From assembly GCA_018725565.1 (NCBI GenBank), contig QLUR01000010.1:1-64000 (forward strand): a stretch of DNA of 64,000 bases, written 5' to 3'. Below the pieces are notes generated by a model. The model had not been told where the DNA came from. It saw nothing but the letters and a program-made list of their open reading frames with translations, and made no database searches. Positions 21,021-49,388 of the stretch are shown one piece after another. Within the stretch, counting starts at the first letter, position 1. Each line of letters begins with the position of its first letter. Made by a program: the position numbers and the translations under genes. Origin of the DNA: Bacillota bacterium (GTDB lineage: Bacteria; Bacillota; Dethiobacteria; Dethiobacterales; Dethiobacteraceae).

Positions 21021-22139
21021 TTGCAGCAGTTTCGGACCAGAATAATGTTACTTGCCGCCATCCTGAGTTTCTTAACCGCTGTGTTCGCCACCGCAGGCTG
21101 GCATTGGGGCGGTTGGGCAGGCCTGCTGCCGGCACTGGGCCTCGGTGTAGCGATAGCAATGACCACATCTTATCTTGTACTTGCCTCGGTGGATAGAGCA
21201 GTCAGCGCCTCCCTGAAAAACACTGCCAAATCCATTGCGGGCGACCTTTCCGAGGTGCCTGAAAAACAAGACTACGGTTGGGGGCAGATTAATGAACTGG
21301 CCGAGAATATCCGCCGTATGTTTAAAGGCACGCGCAAGTGGTTTGGACTGGTAAAGGAAATTAACGACAAATTGGCTTCCGCCGTCGGTCAGATTATGGC
21401 TGGAACGGAGCAGGTGCGCAACGGCAGCAGGGAACAGGCGGTGCAGGTAGGGCAACTGCTTACAAGTATTGAGAAAATGGCTGCTTCATCGGAACAGTCC
21501 GCCAAGCAAGCACACGATGCTGCCCAAGTAGTGGACACCACAGGCCGTACAGCCAGGCATGGCGGAGATGCGGTGGAAAAGGTCAGCCAAAGTATGACCC
21601 GGGTAGGGGAGCAGATGGCCATATTGGAGCAAAGCTCTGCCAAGATTGTAGAATTTATGCAGGTTATTGAAGATATTGCTTCACAGACCAATTTGCTGGC
21701 TCTCAATGCTGCCATAGAGGCCGCCCGGGCCGGGGAGCAGGGGCGCGGCTTTGCCGTGGTAGCTGAAGAAGTGCGCCGCCTGGCAGAAAACTCCGGCGCA
21801 GCCACTCAGAAGGTAGCTGCCATTGTTGCTGAAATTCAGATGGCTGTAAAGGGTACTGTAAATGCCATCCAGACCAGCACGAACTTGACCAAAGATACGG
21901 CTGAAGCCTTCAACTCAATTATCGGGCAGATGGACATAACTGCGGCCACTATCAACCGTCTGGCGGAAACGGCGCAGCAACAGGCTGACAATACGGGAGG
22001 GATGGTGGGCAACGTGCAGTCTATTTCGGCAGTTGCCCAAAATTCAGCGGCCAGCTCCCAGGAAACCAGTACTGTAGTGCAGGAGCTGATGACTGTTTCC
22101 ACCGAGCTGAAAAAAGTAGCTGACATTTGGAAATTTTAG
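21021..22139 (+). CDS. Methyl-accepting chemotaxis protein with minimal sensor region
   Basis: About 372 aa. Two hydrophobic segments with almost no extracellular loop lie at the N terminus ([17 protein letters not shown] and [20 protein letters not shown]). A short linker and the cytoplasmic signalling domain follow, with the conserved hairpin [20 protein letters not shown]. The start is uncertain: TTG 21021 after AAAGGAG, or ATG 21045; the long open frame back to 20760 is AT-rich and unlikely to be translated. It is divergent from the 13-gene operon. Lacking a periplasmic domain, it may sense through a partner or the membrane. It converges with and overlaps the next gene by 4 bases. Confidence 0.88.
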
Positions 22140-23281
22140 GCGGTACTCAGTGCCAGTGCCCGGTCAAGTCCCTGTTTTAAGTCAGCAAATGACTCCAGTC
22201 CGACCGACAGCCGCACCAAGTCATCCCCTACGCCAAGCTCGTCCCTCCAGACTGCGGGCAGGGCGGCATGAGACATGGTCGCCGGGTAGGTTAAGATGCT
22301 TTCAACACCGCCAAGGGAAACCGCCGGTACCGGCAAATGTACGGAATGCAAAAAGCGCTTTGCCGCCTCGCCATCTGACAGGGTGAAACTCAGCACACAG
22401 CCAGGTCCGCTGCTTTGAGTACTGTGAAGTTTTGCGCCGGGATGCCCCGGCAGCCCCGGGTAGTAAACCGTGCCGACCAGCGGGTGCGCGCTCAGCCATT
22501 CCGCCAGTTTTTGCGCCGTTTCCTGCTGGGCATCCATACGCACTTTCAGCGTCCGGATGCCGCGCATCACCAGCCAGCTGTCCTGCGGACCGAGTACGGC
22601 GCCAAAAGCGGTCTGCACAAAGCGCAGGCGGGCCGCCAGTTCTCGGCCGGTGACCACCGCCAAGCCGGCCACCACATCACTGTGCCCGCCCAGGAACTTC
22701 GTGGCCGAATGGACCACCGCGTCACAGTCCAGCTCCAGCGGGCGCTGCAAGTACGGCGTCATAAAAGTATTGTCAACAACGGTAAGGAGCCCGCGCTCCC
22801 GGGCCAGCCTGGCGCAAGCCGCCAGGTCTGTTATTTTCAGCAGCGGGTTGGACGGCGTTTCCAGAAAAAGTGCTTTTGTTTCCGGGCGGATGGCGCTGGC
22901 CACCGCCTCCGTGTCGGTGGCGTCCACAAAGCTGTGCGTGATGCCAAAGCGCGGGAAAAGCCCGGTCAGCAGCCGGTATGTACCACCGTAAATATCCCGG
23001 CAAGCCAAAACATGCTGTCCCGCTTCCAGCAGGCAGAGGACCGAGGCGATGGCCGCCACACCCGAGGCAAAGGCAAAGCCGTATTTGCCCCCCTCAAGAC
23101 CGGCAATAAGCTCTTCCAAAGCGTTGCGGGTCGGATTGCCCGAGCGGCCGTATTCGTAGCGTCCCGGTTCCTCCACGGAGCGCTGCCGGTAAGTTGAGGC
23201 ATGGTAAATCGGAACGCTTAACGCACCATAGTGCTCATCCGGATCTAGCCCGGCATGAATCAGCTTTGTCTCCCAATCCAA
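22136..23281 (-). CDS. Cys/Met-metabolism PLP enzyme (cystathionine gamma-synthase/lyase family)
   Basis: About 381 aa fold-type I PLP enzyme of transsulfuration. It has [28 protein letters not shown], Asp in [14 protein letters not shown] and the PLP lysine in [11 protein letters not shown]. The start is best placed at TTG 23281 after AAGGGGAGA; ATG 23299 lacks a site. Synthase, lyase or O-acetylhomoserine sulfhydrylase activity cannot be separated by sequence here. A paralogue follows 1.9 kb away on the same strand, with a Phd-Uma2 gene between them on the opposite strand. Confidence 0.88.
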
Positions 23282-23344
23282 GTATTCTCTCCCCTTCATC
23301 AATAAAATTATAGGATAAGGAAACGATTATTGCCTTTGCGGTGG

Positions 23345-23404
23345 TATCGTACGATATTTTCAGTATTGCATAATTTCGCCCGATATGCTATAGTGATCGT
23401 ACGA
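23345..23404 (+). promoter_or_regulatory. Promoter with two ATCGTACGA operators for the Phd-Uma2 gene
   Basis: A -35 TTGCAT (23366-23371) and -10 TATAGT (23389-23394) are spaced by 17 bases. A perfect 12-base palindrome TATCGTACGATA (23345-23356) lies just upstream of the -35, and a second copy of its core, ATCGTACGA (23396-23404), covers the start point. The arrangement is that of toxin-antitoxin autoregulation by a Phd-type DNA-binding domain. Confidence 0.7.
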
Positions 23405-23415
23405 GGTGATGGGTA

Positions 23416-24168
23416 ATGAACGACACCACAAAGGTGATCACGGCTACCGAGCTTAAAACCAACCTGGGGCTGTATCTTGACTATGTGATGGCCGACCATG
23501 AAGTTATTATTACCAAGAACGGCAAAAAAGCGGTGCGGCTTACTCCTTACGTCACGGAAATTGAGCGCTATTTCACGGTTAAAGAGCAGGCGCTTGATTA
23601 CCTGTACGGCGGCAAGAAAGTTTCCTACGAGGAGTTCATGGAGATCTACGAAAAAAGCGAGCTCAGAATGGAATATATCAACGGTGAAATTGTGCTCTTA
23701 TCTTCTCCCGACACCTTCCACCAGGATATTTCCGGCAACCTGTTTGTCATTTTGCGGGCATACCTGAAGGATAGCGGCTGCAAGGTTTTTTACGCGCCTT
23801 TTGATGTGCATTTCCACAAAAAGGACTTTAAGACTCCGGATGTGATGCAGCCTGATCTGCTCATTGCCTGCGATTTGGAGACGGCGGTCAACGAAAAGGG
23901 AAGGTATATGGGCACACCGGCCCTGTGCGTCGAAATCCTGTCCAAAAGCACCCGCTCCAAGGATATGGTGGATAAGCTCAACACCTACATGTTATCCGGG
24001 GTAAGGGAATTCTGGGTCGTTGACCCCTATAAACAAGCGGTGCTGGTCTACGGCTTCAGTGATTTTGCCGTTGATGAGTACACCGCTTACAAGTCCGGTG
24101 ATACGGTGAGATCATATTTCTTTGCCGGGCTGGAGATCGCCGTAAGCGAAATATTTAAGCTGCAGTAG
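23416..24168 (+). CDS. Phd/YefM antitoxin-like domain fused to a Uma2-family PD-(D/E)XK nuclease-like domain
   Basis: 250 aa. Residues 1-50 read as a Phd/YefM DNA-binding domain (ITATELKTNLGLYLDYV ... VIITKNGKKAVRLTPY). From about 70 it is a Uma2 (DUF820) domain, with MEYINGEIVLLSSP, the acidic pair around VMQPDLLIACD, and CVEILSKSTRSKD, the ExK-like element. Uma2 domains are predicted PD-(D/E)XK nucleases. Start ATG 23416 follows a GAGGTG site. Fusion of an autoregulatory antitoxin fold with a nuclease fold in one chain is unusual; no separate partner gene is adjacent. Confidence 0.83.
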   Translation: MNDTTKVITATELKTNLGLYLDYVMADHEVIITKNGKKAVRLTPYVTEIERYFTVKEQALDYLYGGKKVSYEEFMEIYEKSELRMEYINGEIVLLSSPDTFHQDISGNLFVILRAYLKDSGCKVFYAPFDVHFHKKDFKTPDVMQPDLLIACDLETAVNEKGRYMGTPALCVEILSKSTRSKDMVDKLNTYMLSGVREFWVVDPYKQAVLVYGFSDFAVDEYTAYKSGDTVRSYFFAGLEIAVSEIFKLQ

Positions 24169-24212
24169 GGAACAGTCTTGACCGTTTCAACTGGTTTTCA
24201 TCGTTGAGCTTG

Positions 24213-25346
24213 TTATTGCTGGGAAAGCGCTTGTTCCAGGTCGTCGCGCAGGTCGCTGATATGCTCAATGCCTGCGGAAAGCCGCAGCAGCCGGTCGTCA
24301 ATGCCAAGACGCCGGCGCGTATCTTCCGGGACATCGGCGTGGGTCTGCAGGAGGGGGTAGGTGACAAGCGACTCCACACCGCCCAGGGACTCCGCGTAAG
24401 AAATTATCTTCACCTTGCCCAGCACCTGACCGACAAGAGCCGCATCTCTCAGGCGAAAAGAGAGCATCGCCCCCAGACCCGGGTAATAGACTGCTTCCGC
24501 CAGCGGATGCTCACGCAGCCAGTTCGCCAGCATGGTTGCATTTTCCTGCTGCCGGTCAAGCCTGACGGCCAACGTCTTCAACCCGCGCAGCAGCAGCCAG
24601 CAATCGTGCGGGGACAGCACAGGGCCGCAGGCGTTTTGCACAAAGGCCACTTCCTTAGCTAATTGCTCATTGCCAGCCACTACCACGCCTGCCAGCAGGT
24701 CGTTATGGCCGCCGAGATACTTGGTGGCACTGTGCACGACAAGGTCGCAGCCCAGCTGCAGCGGCCGCTGCAGGTAAGGAGTAAGCAAGGTATTATCCAC
24801 TACGCTGAGCACGCCCCGTCCCCGGCAAAGCTGCGCGATATTTGCCAGATCGCTTATTTTCAGCATGGGATTTGACGGTGATTCCAGCACGAGCGCCTTC
24901 GTATTGTCCCGCAGGGAGGCTTCCACCGCCGCCAGGTCGGTGGTATCGACATAATCGGCCGTCAGGCCGAACCGGGAGAATATGCGGTCCAACAGGCGGT
25001 ATGTGCCGCCATATAGGTCTTCCCCCAGCAGCAGATGGTCGCCGGACTTAAACAACAAAAAGACCGCCGTCAGCGCCGCCAGTCCGGAAGCAAAAGAGTA
25101 GGCGGCATATCCGCCTTCCAGGCCGGCCAGAGCCTCCTCCAGTGCCTGCCGGGTGGGATTGCCCGAACGCGTATAGTCGTAGCCGGTGGATACGCCCAAC
25201 CCCGGATGGGCAAAGGTGGCCGACTGGTAAATAGGCACGCTGAGTGCCCCGGTGGCCGTGTCAAAACGCACGCCGCTCTGCACCAGGCGCGTGGAGATCT
25301 CCCTGCCGCGCCCGCGCGCGCTGCCGAACCGTTTTTGTTCCGTCAT
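24213..25346 (-). CDS. Cys/Met-metabolism PLP enzyme, second copy with a deletion
   Basis: 377 aa paralogue of the enzyme at 22136-23281: YDYTRSGNPTRQALE, ESPSNPMLKISDL, VVDNTLLTPYLQRP and PLP lysine in SATKYLGGHND are intact. After VYYPGL the protein runs straight into GAMLSF, skipping about 17 residues (the PGHP...Q-x-G loop) that the first copy retains. The loop is near the active-site entrance in this family, so substrate choice may differ. It is probably co-transcribed with the ABC transporter genes upstream, 20 bases away. Confidence 0.87.
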   Translation of the reverse strand: MTEQKRFGSARGRGREISTRLVQSGVRFDTATGALSVPIYQSATFAHPGLGVSTGYDYTRSGNPTRQALEEALAGLEGGYAAYSFASGLAALTAVFLLFKSGDHLLLGEDLYGGTYRLLDRIFSRFGLTADYVDTTDLAAVEASLRDNTKALVLESPSNPMLKISDLANIAQLCRGRGVLSVVDNTLLTPYLQRPLQLGCDLVVHSATKYLGGHNDLLAGVVVAGNEQLAKEVAFVQNACGPVLSPHDCWLLLRGLKTLAVRLDRQQENATMLANWLREHPLAEAVYYPGLGAMLSFRLRDAALVGQVLGKVKIISYAESLGGVESLVTYPLLQTHADVPEDTRRRLGIDDRLLRLSAGIEHISDLRDDLEQALSQQ

Positions 25347-49124: not shown

Positions 49125-49388
49125 ATGCCTCAGATCAGACCGATTACGGATTTAAGAAATACCAGCGAAATCTCCGAATTATGCCACGCCAAAAAAGAAC
49201 CGATTTTCATTACGAAAAACGGTTATGGCGATCTGGTAATTATGAGTATTGAAACCTATGAAGCCATGCTGGAAGAGCGGGAACTTGACGCAGCTATTGC
49301 GGAAGCCGAAGCCGGGTATGCTTCTGACAACCGTCTGTTGGATGCAAAGGAAAGCCTTTCCACATTAAGAAGGAACCACTTTGGATAA
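49125..49388 (+). CDS. YefM/Phd-family antitoxin
   Basis: 87 aa: ITDLRNTSEISELCH and EPIFITKNGYGDLVIMS are typical of the Phd/YefM DNA-binding half; the acidic C-terminal tail binds the toxin. ATG preceded by AAAGGAGGTG. Overlaps the toxin gene by 8 bases. Confidence 0.9.
   Translation: MPQIRPITDLRNTSEISELCHAKKEPIFITKNGYGDLVIMSIETYEAMLEERELDAAIAEAEAGYASDNRLLDAKESLSTLRRNHFG

Follow-up and report, generated by a model that had tools for sequence, protein, structure and literature searches.

Phd-Uma2 fusions of Bacillota as probable solo, self-repressing and horizontally exchanged PD-(D/E)XK-fold enzymes

The YefM-YoeB/Axe-Txe and Phd-Doc toxin-antitoxin systems combine an N-terminal Phd/YefM fold with palindromic operators that overlap the promoter (PMC7730913, PMC4803016), and the published operator core of YefM/Axe is TGTACA (PMC7730913). 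In the product of EzeT, a solitary gene, an antitoxin-type domain forms the N-terminal part and an effector the C-terminal part (PMC4803016). Uma2 (COG4636, DUF820) has been an abundant orphan family of nuclease-like proteins since 2005, and is a suspected solo toxin with no known trigger or control. For Uma2-type proteins, Feder and Bujnicki proposed a PD-EXX-K site in which the lysine has migrated and a histidine takes part (PMC551604), and Makarova and colleagues called Uma2 a likely solo toxin that is rarely tied to known antitoxins (PMC2701414). A Uma2 domain is also found in the PADLOC candidate defence family PDC-S03, which is named in no paper that our literature search found.

The gene described here lies in a 64,000-nucleotide stretch of Bacillota DNA (the window, to which all coordinates refer) and joins a Phd-type domain to a Uma2 domain. 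It shares with the YefM and Phd systems the N-terminal fold and the operators overlapping the promoter. It differs from them in lacking a partner toxin gene, in having an unrecognisable toxin-binding half, and in carrying three sites, with a spacing of 21 bp (two turns) instead of 12 bp. One clade of such fusions (clade A) has the GTAC core of the YefM/Axe TGTACA (PMC7730913, PMC4803016), and the fusions of a sister clade (clade B) use an AGCT core at a spacing of 9 bp.

We consider it probable, at roughly 0.72, that Phd-Uma2 is a solo, horizontally exchanged, self-repressing PD-(D/E)XK-fold enzyme. The computational observations behind this reading are the domain architecture, phased operators, a clade-specific operator, intact catalytic residues, the lack of a conserved partner, and horizontal spread. 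The components of the fusion are known, and its domain architecture is presumably visible in domain databases. The operator architecture, the clade-specific switch and a third DNA-binding class, with repeats phased at 10 bp, appear to be undescribed in the papers searched; the search, with most subscription journals and preprints outside its scope, returned no paper on a Phd-Uma2 fusion or its operators. The fusions offer a first testable control logic for an abundant and uncharacterised family. With a defined operator sequence and geometry, and a gene short enough for work in a laboratory strain, they open repression, induction and substrate to direct tests.

The fusion gene and its predicted enzyme

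The gene and its parts are as follows.

23416-24168, + strand: Phd-Uma2 fusion gene, 250 aa, solitary (ORF list, Pfam, NCBIfam, structure model)
23431-23550, + strand: Phd/YefM DNA-binding domain, aa 6-45 (PF02604, TIGR01552)
23629-24144, + strand: Uma2 PD-(D/E)XK-fold domain, aa 72-243 (PF05685)
23719-23721, 23854-23856, 23932-23934 and 23974-23976, + strand: predicted catalytic residues H102, D147, E173 and K187, respectively (alignment of 169 fusions)

The first-pass annotation read this frame as a Phd-Uma2 fusion in one chain, and profile matches bear this out. In Pfam, PF02604 (PhdYeFM_antitox) matches aa 6-45 (E 7.5e-9; 35.7 bits against a cut-off of 29.8) and PF05685 (Uma2) matches aa 72-243 (E 3.8e-28; 98.6 bits against a cut-off of 27), while the N-terminal domain is also matched by TIGR01552 of NCBIfam. 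In an AlphaFold2 model built from 85 aligned fusions (mean pLDDT 88.5), both domains are folded, and the linker that joins them, at about aa 51-64, is poorly ordered and of low pLDDT. According to Foldseek, the C-terminal domain of the model resembles 9y1l, 6okh, 3ot2 and 1wdj, and the N-terminal domain resembles that of VapB46 (6jqy) and operator-bound Phd (4zm2), with weak E-values and a probability near 1. The fusion has the fold and PD-EXX-K site of the putative Uma2/COG4636/DUF820 nucleases (PMC551604), to which it adds a DNA-binding domain at the N-terminus and a dedicated array of operators. Among the matches listed, relatives from plasmids and the PDB correspond to the Uma2 part and at most a few linker residues.

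Of the 74 positions in the Phd profile, the fusion matches 2-42 and leaves 43-74 unmatched, so that the toxin-binding half appears to have been replaced by the low-confidence linker. The earlier suggestion of a single-gene toxin-antitoxin unit gains no support on this point. If the protein were a cis-acting unit of the EzeT kind, Uma2 would be restrained by the Phd domain and the linker of its own chain, and linker cleavage or a conformational change would free the toxin. An antitoxin domain tethered in this way has a precedent in EzeT (PMC4803016), the low pLDDT of the linker is as expected for a cleavable or flexible tether, and the likely solo-toxin nature of Uma2 (PMC2701414) fits as well. 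We nevertheless think a cis-acting unit unlikely: the part of Phd that wraps a toxin is the part that cannot be recognised, the domain that remains is already explained by the operators described below, and related Uma2 proteins stand alone without such a domain. The folds of EzeT differ from those of the fusion, whose N-terminal domain has operator evidence by conservation.

The Uma2 domain of the fusion most likely cuts DNA. Its H102, D147, E173 and K187 correspond to the residues proposed for the PD-EXX-K site, including the migrated lysine, and these four are invariant, together with Q103, D183 and W200, in 169/169 aligned fusions. The loss of nuclease residues in an alignment, which the first-pass annotation had foreseen as a possible objection, is thus not seen. 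PDC-S03 models match the Uma2 domain with E-values down to 2.4e-54 and cover that domain only. Both this listing and the solo-toxin call fit a conditional, self-limiting nuclease.

Promoter layout and operator conservation

The region upstream of the fusion gene contains the following elements; A1 denotes the supported subclade of clade A that includes the window gene.

23347-23354, no strand: predicted operator O1, TCGTACGA within TATCGTACGATA, a palindrome of 12 bp, ahead of the -35
23366-23371, + strand: -35-like hexamer TTGCAT, 3/6 to consensus, its TTG kept in the A1 consensus
23376-23383, no strand: predicted operator O2, TCGCCCGA, between the -35-like and -10 hexamers and exactly 21 bp before O3
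23389-23394, + strand: -10 hexamer TATAGT, 17 bp past the -35-like hexamer, conserved among A1 genes
23397-23404, no strand: predicted operator O3, TCGTACGA, an exact match, just past the -10 and abutting the Shine-Dalgarno
23403-23410, + strand: Shine-Dalgarno GAGGTGAT, overlapping the end of O3 (sequence, A1 consensus)

The 9-mer ATCGTACGA occurs exactly at 23346-23354 and 23396-23404. Its count in the window alone is unremarkable (4 matches with ≤1 mismatch against 5.2 expected), and what speaks for operators is pairing and conservation. Exact TCGTACGA is rare in the 2.67-Mb host genome, with 5 places against 47 for a reversed control pattern, and two of the five lie 50 bp apart at the fusion promoter. 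The other three are found in long open frames (C40, C80) or in a short frame only (C25:153207).

Conservation was assessed in 169 distinct fusions. They were drawn from a set of 99 related genomes, of which 45 gave a match at 1e-10, from 398 genomes sampled across the phylum, of which 60 gave a match at 1e-35, and from 80 titled loci of species genomes. The titled loci belong to Bacillota such as Desulfosporosinus, Ruminiclostridium, Syntrophomonas, Dethiobacter, Evansella, Bacillus and Paenibacillus, and include a few records without a named phylum. Filtering removed matches below 100 bits, without the Phd motif pattern, with fewer than 225 residues past the motif or with fewer than 120 bases upstream, as well as exact duplicates; near-copies remain, so that the counts given here are not independent events. 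The set was drawn without many of the lower-scoring genome matches, and outside it stand the divergent fusions L172, L173 and L175 and a second copy in L048.

A tree of the fusions separates two operator classes. On side A, 68/89 rows have the TCGTACGA motif, including 54/54 of subclade A1, and on side B, the sister clade, 77/80 rows have TTAGCTAA. Division by pattern gives 91 A and 78 B rather than the 89 and 80 of the tree; because the two splits differ, the A2 set (n=37, by pattern) holds L072 and L194, which the tree places in B. Relative to dinucleotide shuffles, and with A1, A2 and B grouped by pattern, at least one TCGTACGA site with ≤1 mismatch precedes 54/54 A1 genes (3.6 expected) and at least two precede 46/54 (0.1 expected). 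The operators of A2 are degenerate, with such a site in 14/37 (0.9 expected). In B, TTAGCTAA is found with ≤1 mismatch in 76/78 (15.5 expected) and exactly in 51/78 (1.0 expected). The motif of the opposite clade is at or near chance in each clade. Such sites thus precede other fusions, as the first reading had asked, and homologues in both clades retain an operator upstream.

The sites are also phased. The preferred spacing is 21 bp in A1 (47 pairs in 54 genes against 0.2 expected), which is the O2-O3 phasing, 22 bp in A2 (22 pairs against 0.1) and 9 bp in B (52 pairs against 0.7). Many A1 genes keep the spacing of O1 as well, at 29 bp to O2 and 50 bp to O3. When all 256 8-bp palindromes were scanned in a smaller set, with neither motif specified beforehand, TCGTACGA came first in A1 (21/25 against 0.07 expected) and TTAGCTAA first in B (38/59 against 0.77), in groups made by pattern with a few rows misplaced (e.g. 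L005, L006, L043, L062, L067).

An A1 promoter consensus was taken from the 45 of 54 A1 genes with a locatable O3. It has the order of the window promoter (O1, the -35-like TTGCAT, O2 in the spacer, the -10 TATAGT, O3, Shine-Dalgarno), with TATAAT between O2 and O3. TATAAT with ≤1 mismatch occupies the O2-O3 gap in 44/45 of these genes against 24/270 control stretches, and a Shine-Dalgarno of GAGGTG or GGGGTG abuts O3 in 45/45. The first-pass annotation had described a clean promoter bracketed by two sites. Both exact sites and the -10 stand; there is in addition a third site, O2, which is TCGCCCGA in the window and has no GTAC core, and the promoter is less clean than described, since its weak -35 left TTGCAT-17-TATAGT unreported by a consensus scan.

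Free-standing Phd-family genes served as a control, with 100 bp scanned upstream of 89 distinct genes from related genomes. TCGTACGA with ≤1 mismatch precedes 0/89, and TTAGCTAA with ≤1 mismatch precedes 13/89, 3 of them exactly. Free-standing Phd genes of another type also carry TTAGCTAA, so that fusions share the B motif with other genes. TGTACA lies upstream of 6/7 genes judged YefM-like by sequence reading, which indicates that the method recovers a known operator. In the window itself, a free-standing Phd-family antitoxin-type gene at 49134-49313 has a TGTACA site upstream.

The sister clades, which have the same domain order and different operators, form a ready set for the study of DNA choice by Phd/YefM domains. 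Residues 14-15 are K-x in clade A and Q/K-N in clade B, with N15 in 78/78. A two-residue operator code at these positions was rejected, because free-standing Phd genes with an A-K-T-N/S-L motif carry TTAGCTAA and share K-T with many clade A proteins. Three such genes (L291, L299, L304) have an exact TTAGCTAA, the clade B operator.

The operator motif and its phasing accompany the gene and change from one sister clade to the other, and free-standing Phd genes lack TCGTACGA upstream. We infer, with strong support from these footprints, that the fusion represses its own gene through its Phd domain. A search for a wider regulon, at ≤1 mismatch, gave 5 genome matches to the phased O2-O3 pattern, where the reversed control gave 13. 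At zero mismatches the pattern occurs only at the gene's own promoter and at C72:1264, and with this one other match no wider regulon is apparent. These results also bear on the reading of the protein as a catalytically idle regulator, a transcription factor whose Uma2 fold would act as a sensor or oligomerisation module. The strong operators would suit it, the literature searched gave no enzymatic activity for the Uma2 family, and non-catalytic PD-(D/E)XK folds exist (PMC551604). However, the lack of an apparent wider regulon and the seven invariant residues, D147, E173 and K187 among them, count against this reading, which we hold to be quite unlikely.

As a self-repressing enzyme, the protein would act in the following way. 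Its N-terminal Phd/YefM domain, presumably dimeric, would bind the three palindromic operators. O2 (between -35 and -10) and O3 (past the -10, on the Shine-Dalgarno) lie two helical turns apart, with O1 upstream, and operator occupancy would block RNA polymerase and keep the protein scarce. Derepression would permit a conditional rise of active enzyme, and the Uma2 domain, with its full PD-EXX-K site including the migrated lysine and the histidine, would then cut DNA, harming foreign DNA in a defence role or the cell itself as a solo toxin.

Genomic context and spread

Autoregulation through palindromic operators, in the style of type II toxin-antitoxin systems, is matched here by the conservation of predicted sites. 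The layout of a two-gene toxin-antitoxin operon is not found, as the genes on either side of the window gene lie on the opposite strand. Among loci whose flank is long enough, a same-strand open reading frame follows within 60 bp at 8/82 in clade A and 6/45 in clade B. At the loci examined, fusions have no recurring partner family in their vicinity other than further Uma2 genes and genes for generic transport and redox functions, and no recurrent DNA methylase neighbour was recognised there; these family names come from reading the sequences. The neighbours of the window gene were likewise named from sequence.

22136-23302, - strand: cystathionine gamma-synthase/lyase-type gene, half of an interrupted tandem pair
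24213-25346, - strand: second cystathionine gamma-synthase/lyase-type gene, the other half of the pair

The fusion gene is on the strand opposite to these tandem genes. Such pairs are practically contiguous at C74 of the same genome and in G002, G003, G012, G016 and G018, and the fusion gene therefore appears to interrupt the pair at 22136-25346. Its closest relative (L120, 92%) has a neighbour gene of the same family, with the flank beyond it shared. In L120 that neighbouring gene looks broken into several frames, and an open reading frame at 1081-1500, minimal-nucleotidyltransferase-like by sequence reading, lies between it and the fusion. No defence island was recognised at 20.5-27.5 kb of the window, where the gene sits between metabolic genes.

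The fusion gene probably moves horizontally. Its distribution is patchy, and distant genomes resemble each other more in the fusion than in RecA: identity is higher for the fusion in 8/9 genomes of other families (e.g. G245, 84% versus 71%) and lower in 2/2 genomes of the same family. This comparison was made without G128 (motif not found), G088 (no RecA match) and G002 (unpaired with a fusion). At the G128 RecA locus (L213), the usual RecA Walker motif was not found in an open frame, although the family profile matches; an insertion or a variant sequence is possible. Candidate mobile carriers were rejected: among 72,556 plasmid records and 50,697 phage records none covers ≥80% of the protein, partial matches being limited to 24 of the former and 1 of the latter, and viral contigs gave three short matches to the Phd part and no full-length fusion.

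A homing-like nuclease, which the Phd domain would deliver to TCGTACGA-type sites in invading DNA or in DNA lacking the locus and which would thereby drive its own spread, would suit the horizontal movement, the position of a single inserted gene within a tandem pair and the rarity of TCGTACGA in the host, but is very improbable, given that the best-conserved sites are in its own promoter, where cutting would be self-destructive, that the window locus has no insertion-type flanking repeats of note, and that neighbours differ across fusion loci, which implies no fixed target or insertion site.

Other Uma2 proteins with DNA-binding domains

In a tree of the Uma2 domain alone, built on 90 of 202 rows, the Phd fusions form a group of their own, separate from most stand-alone Uma2 proteins; a single stand-alone protein lies within this group, at a divergent edge. 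Another branch has an excisionase-like helix-turn-helix, named from sequence, in place of Phd. Direct repeats resembling TAGTTGAT, mostly 10 or 20 bp apart, precede the start codon of 11 of these genes (11 of 12 upstream regions found, one near-copy left out), namely L200 from the window's own genome and L029, L030, L031, L033, L091, L093, L110, L136, L141 and L196. AGTTGA occurs 11 times in these regions against 0.5 expected, where the largest total for any 6-mer in the shuffles was 15. The sample is small, and the repeats were found by looking.

These two classes permit a tentative and rather doubtful generalisation, in which Uma2 tethered to a DNA-binding domain would be a one-gene, self-titrating nuclease switch, at once its own repressor and sensor, and a general design for solo defence. 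Foreign or damaged DNA might engage Uma2, or offer decoy operators, and the protein would leave its promoter array; transcription from the vacated array would rise and a burst of nuclease would follow. Bacillota Uma2 proteins would have arrived at this logic on at least two occasions, through DNA-binding domains unrelated to each other: Phd, acting on GTAC- or AGCT-core palindromes, and the excisionase-like helix-turn-helix, acting on 10-bp-phased TAGTTGAT repeats. The window genome has three Uma2 genes, none of them stand-alone, and one of each kind.
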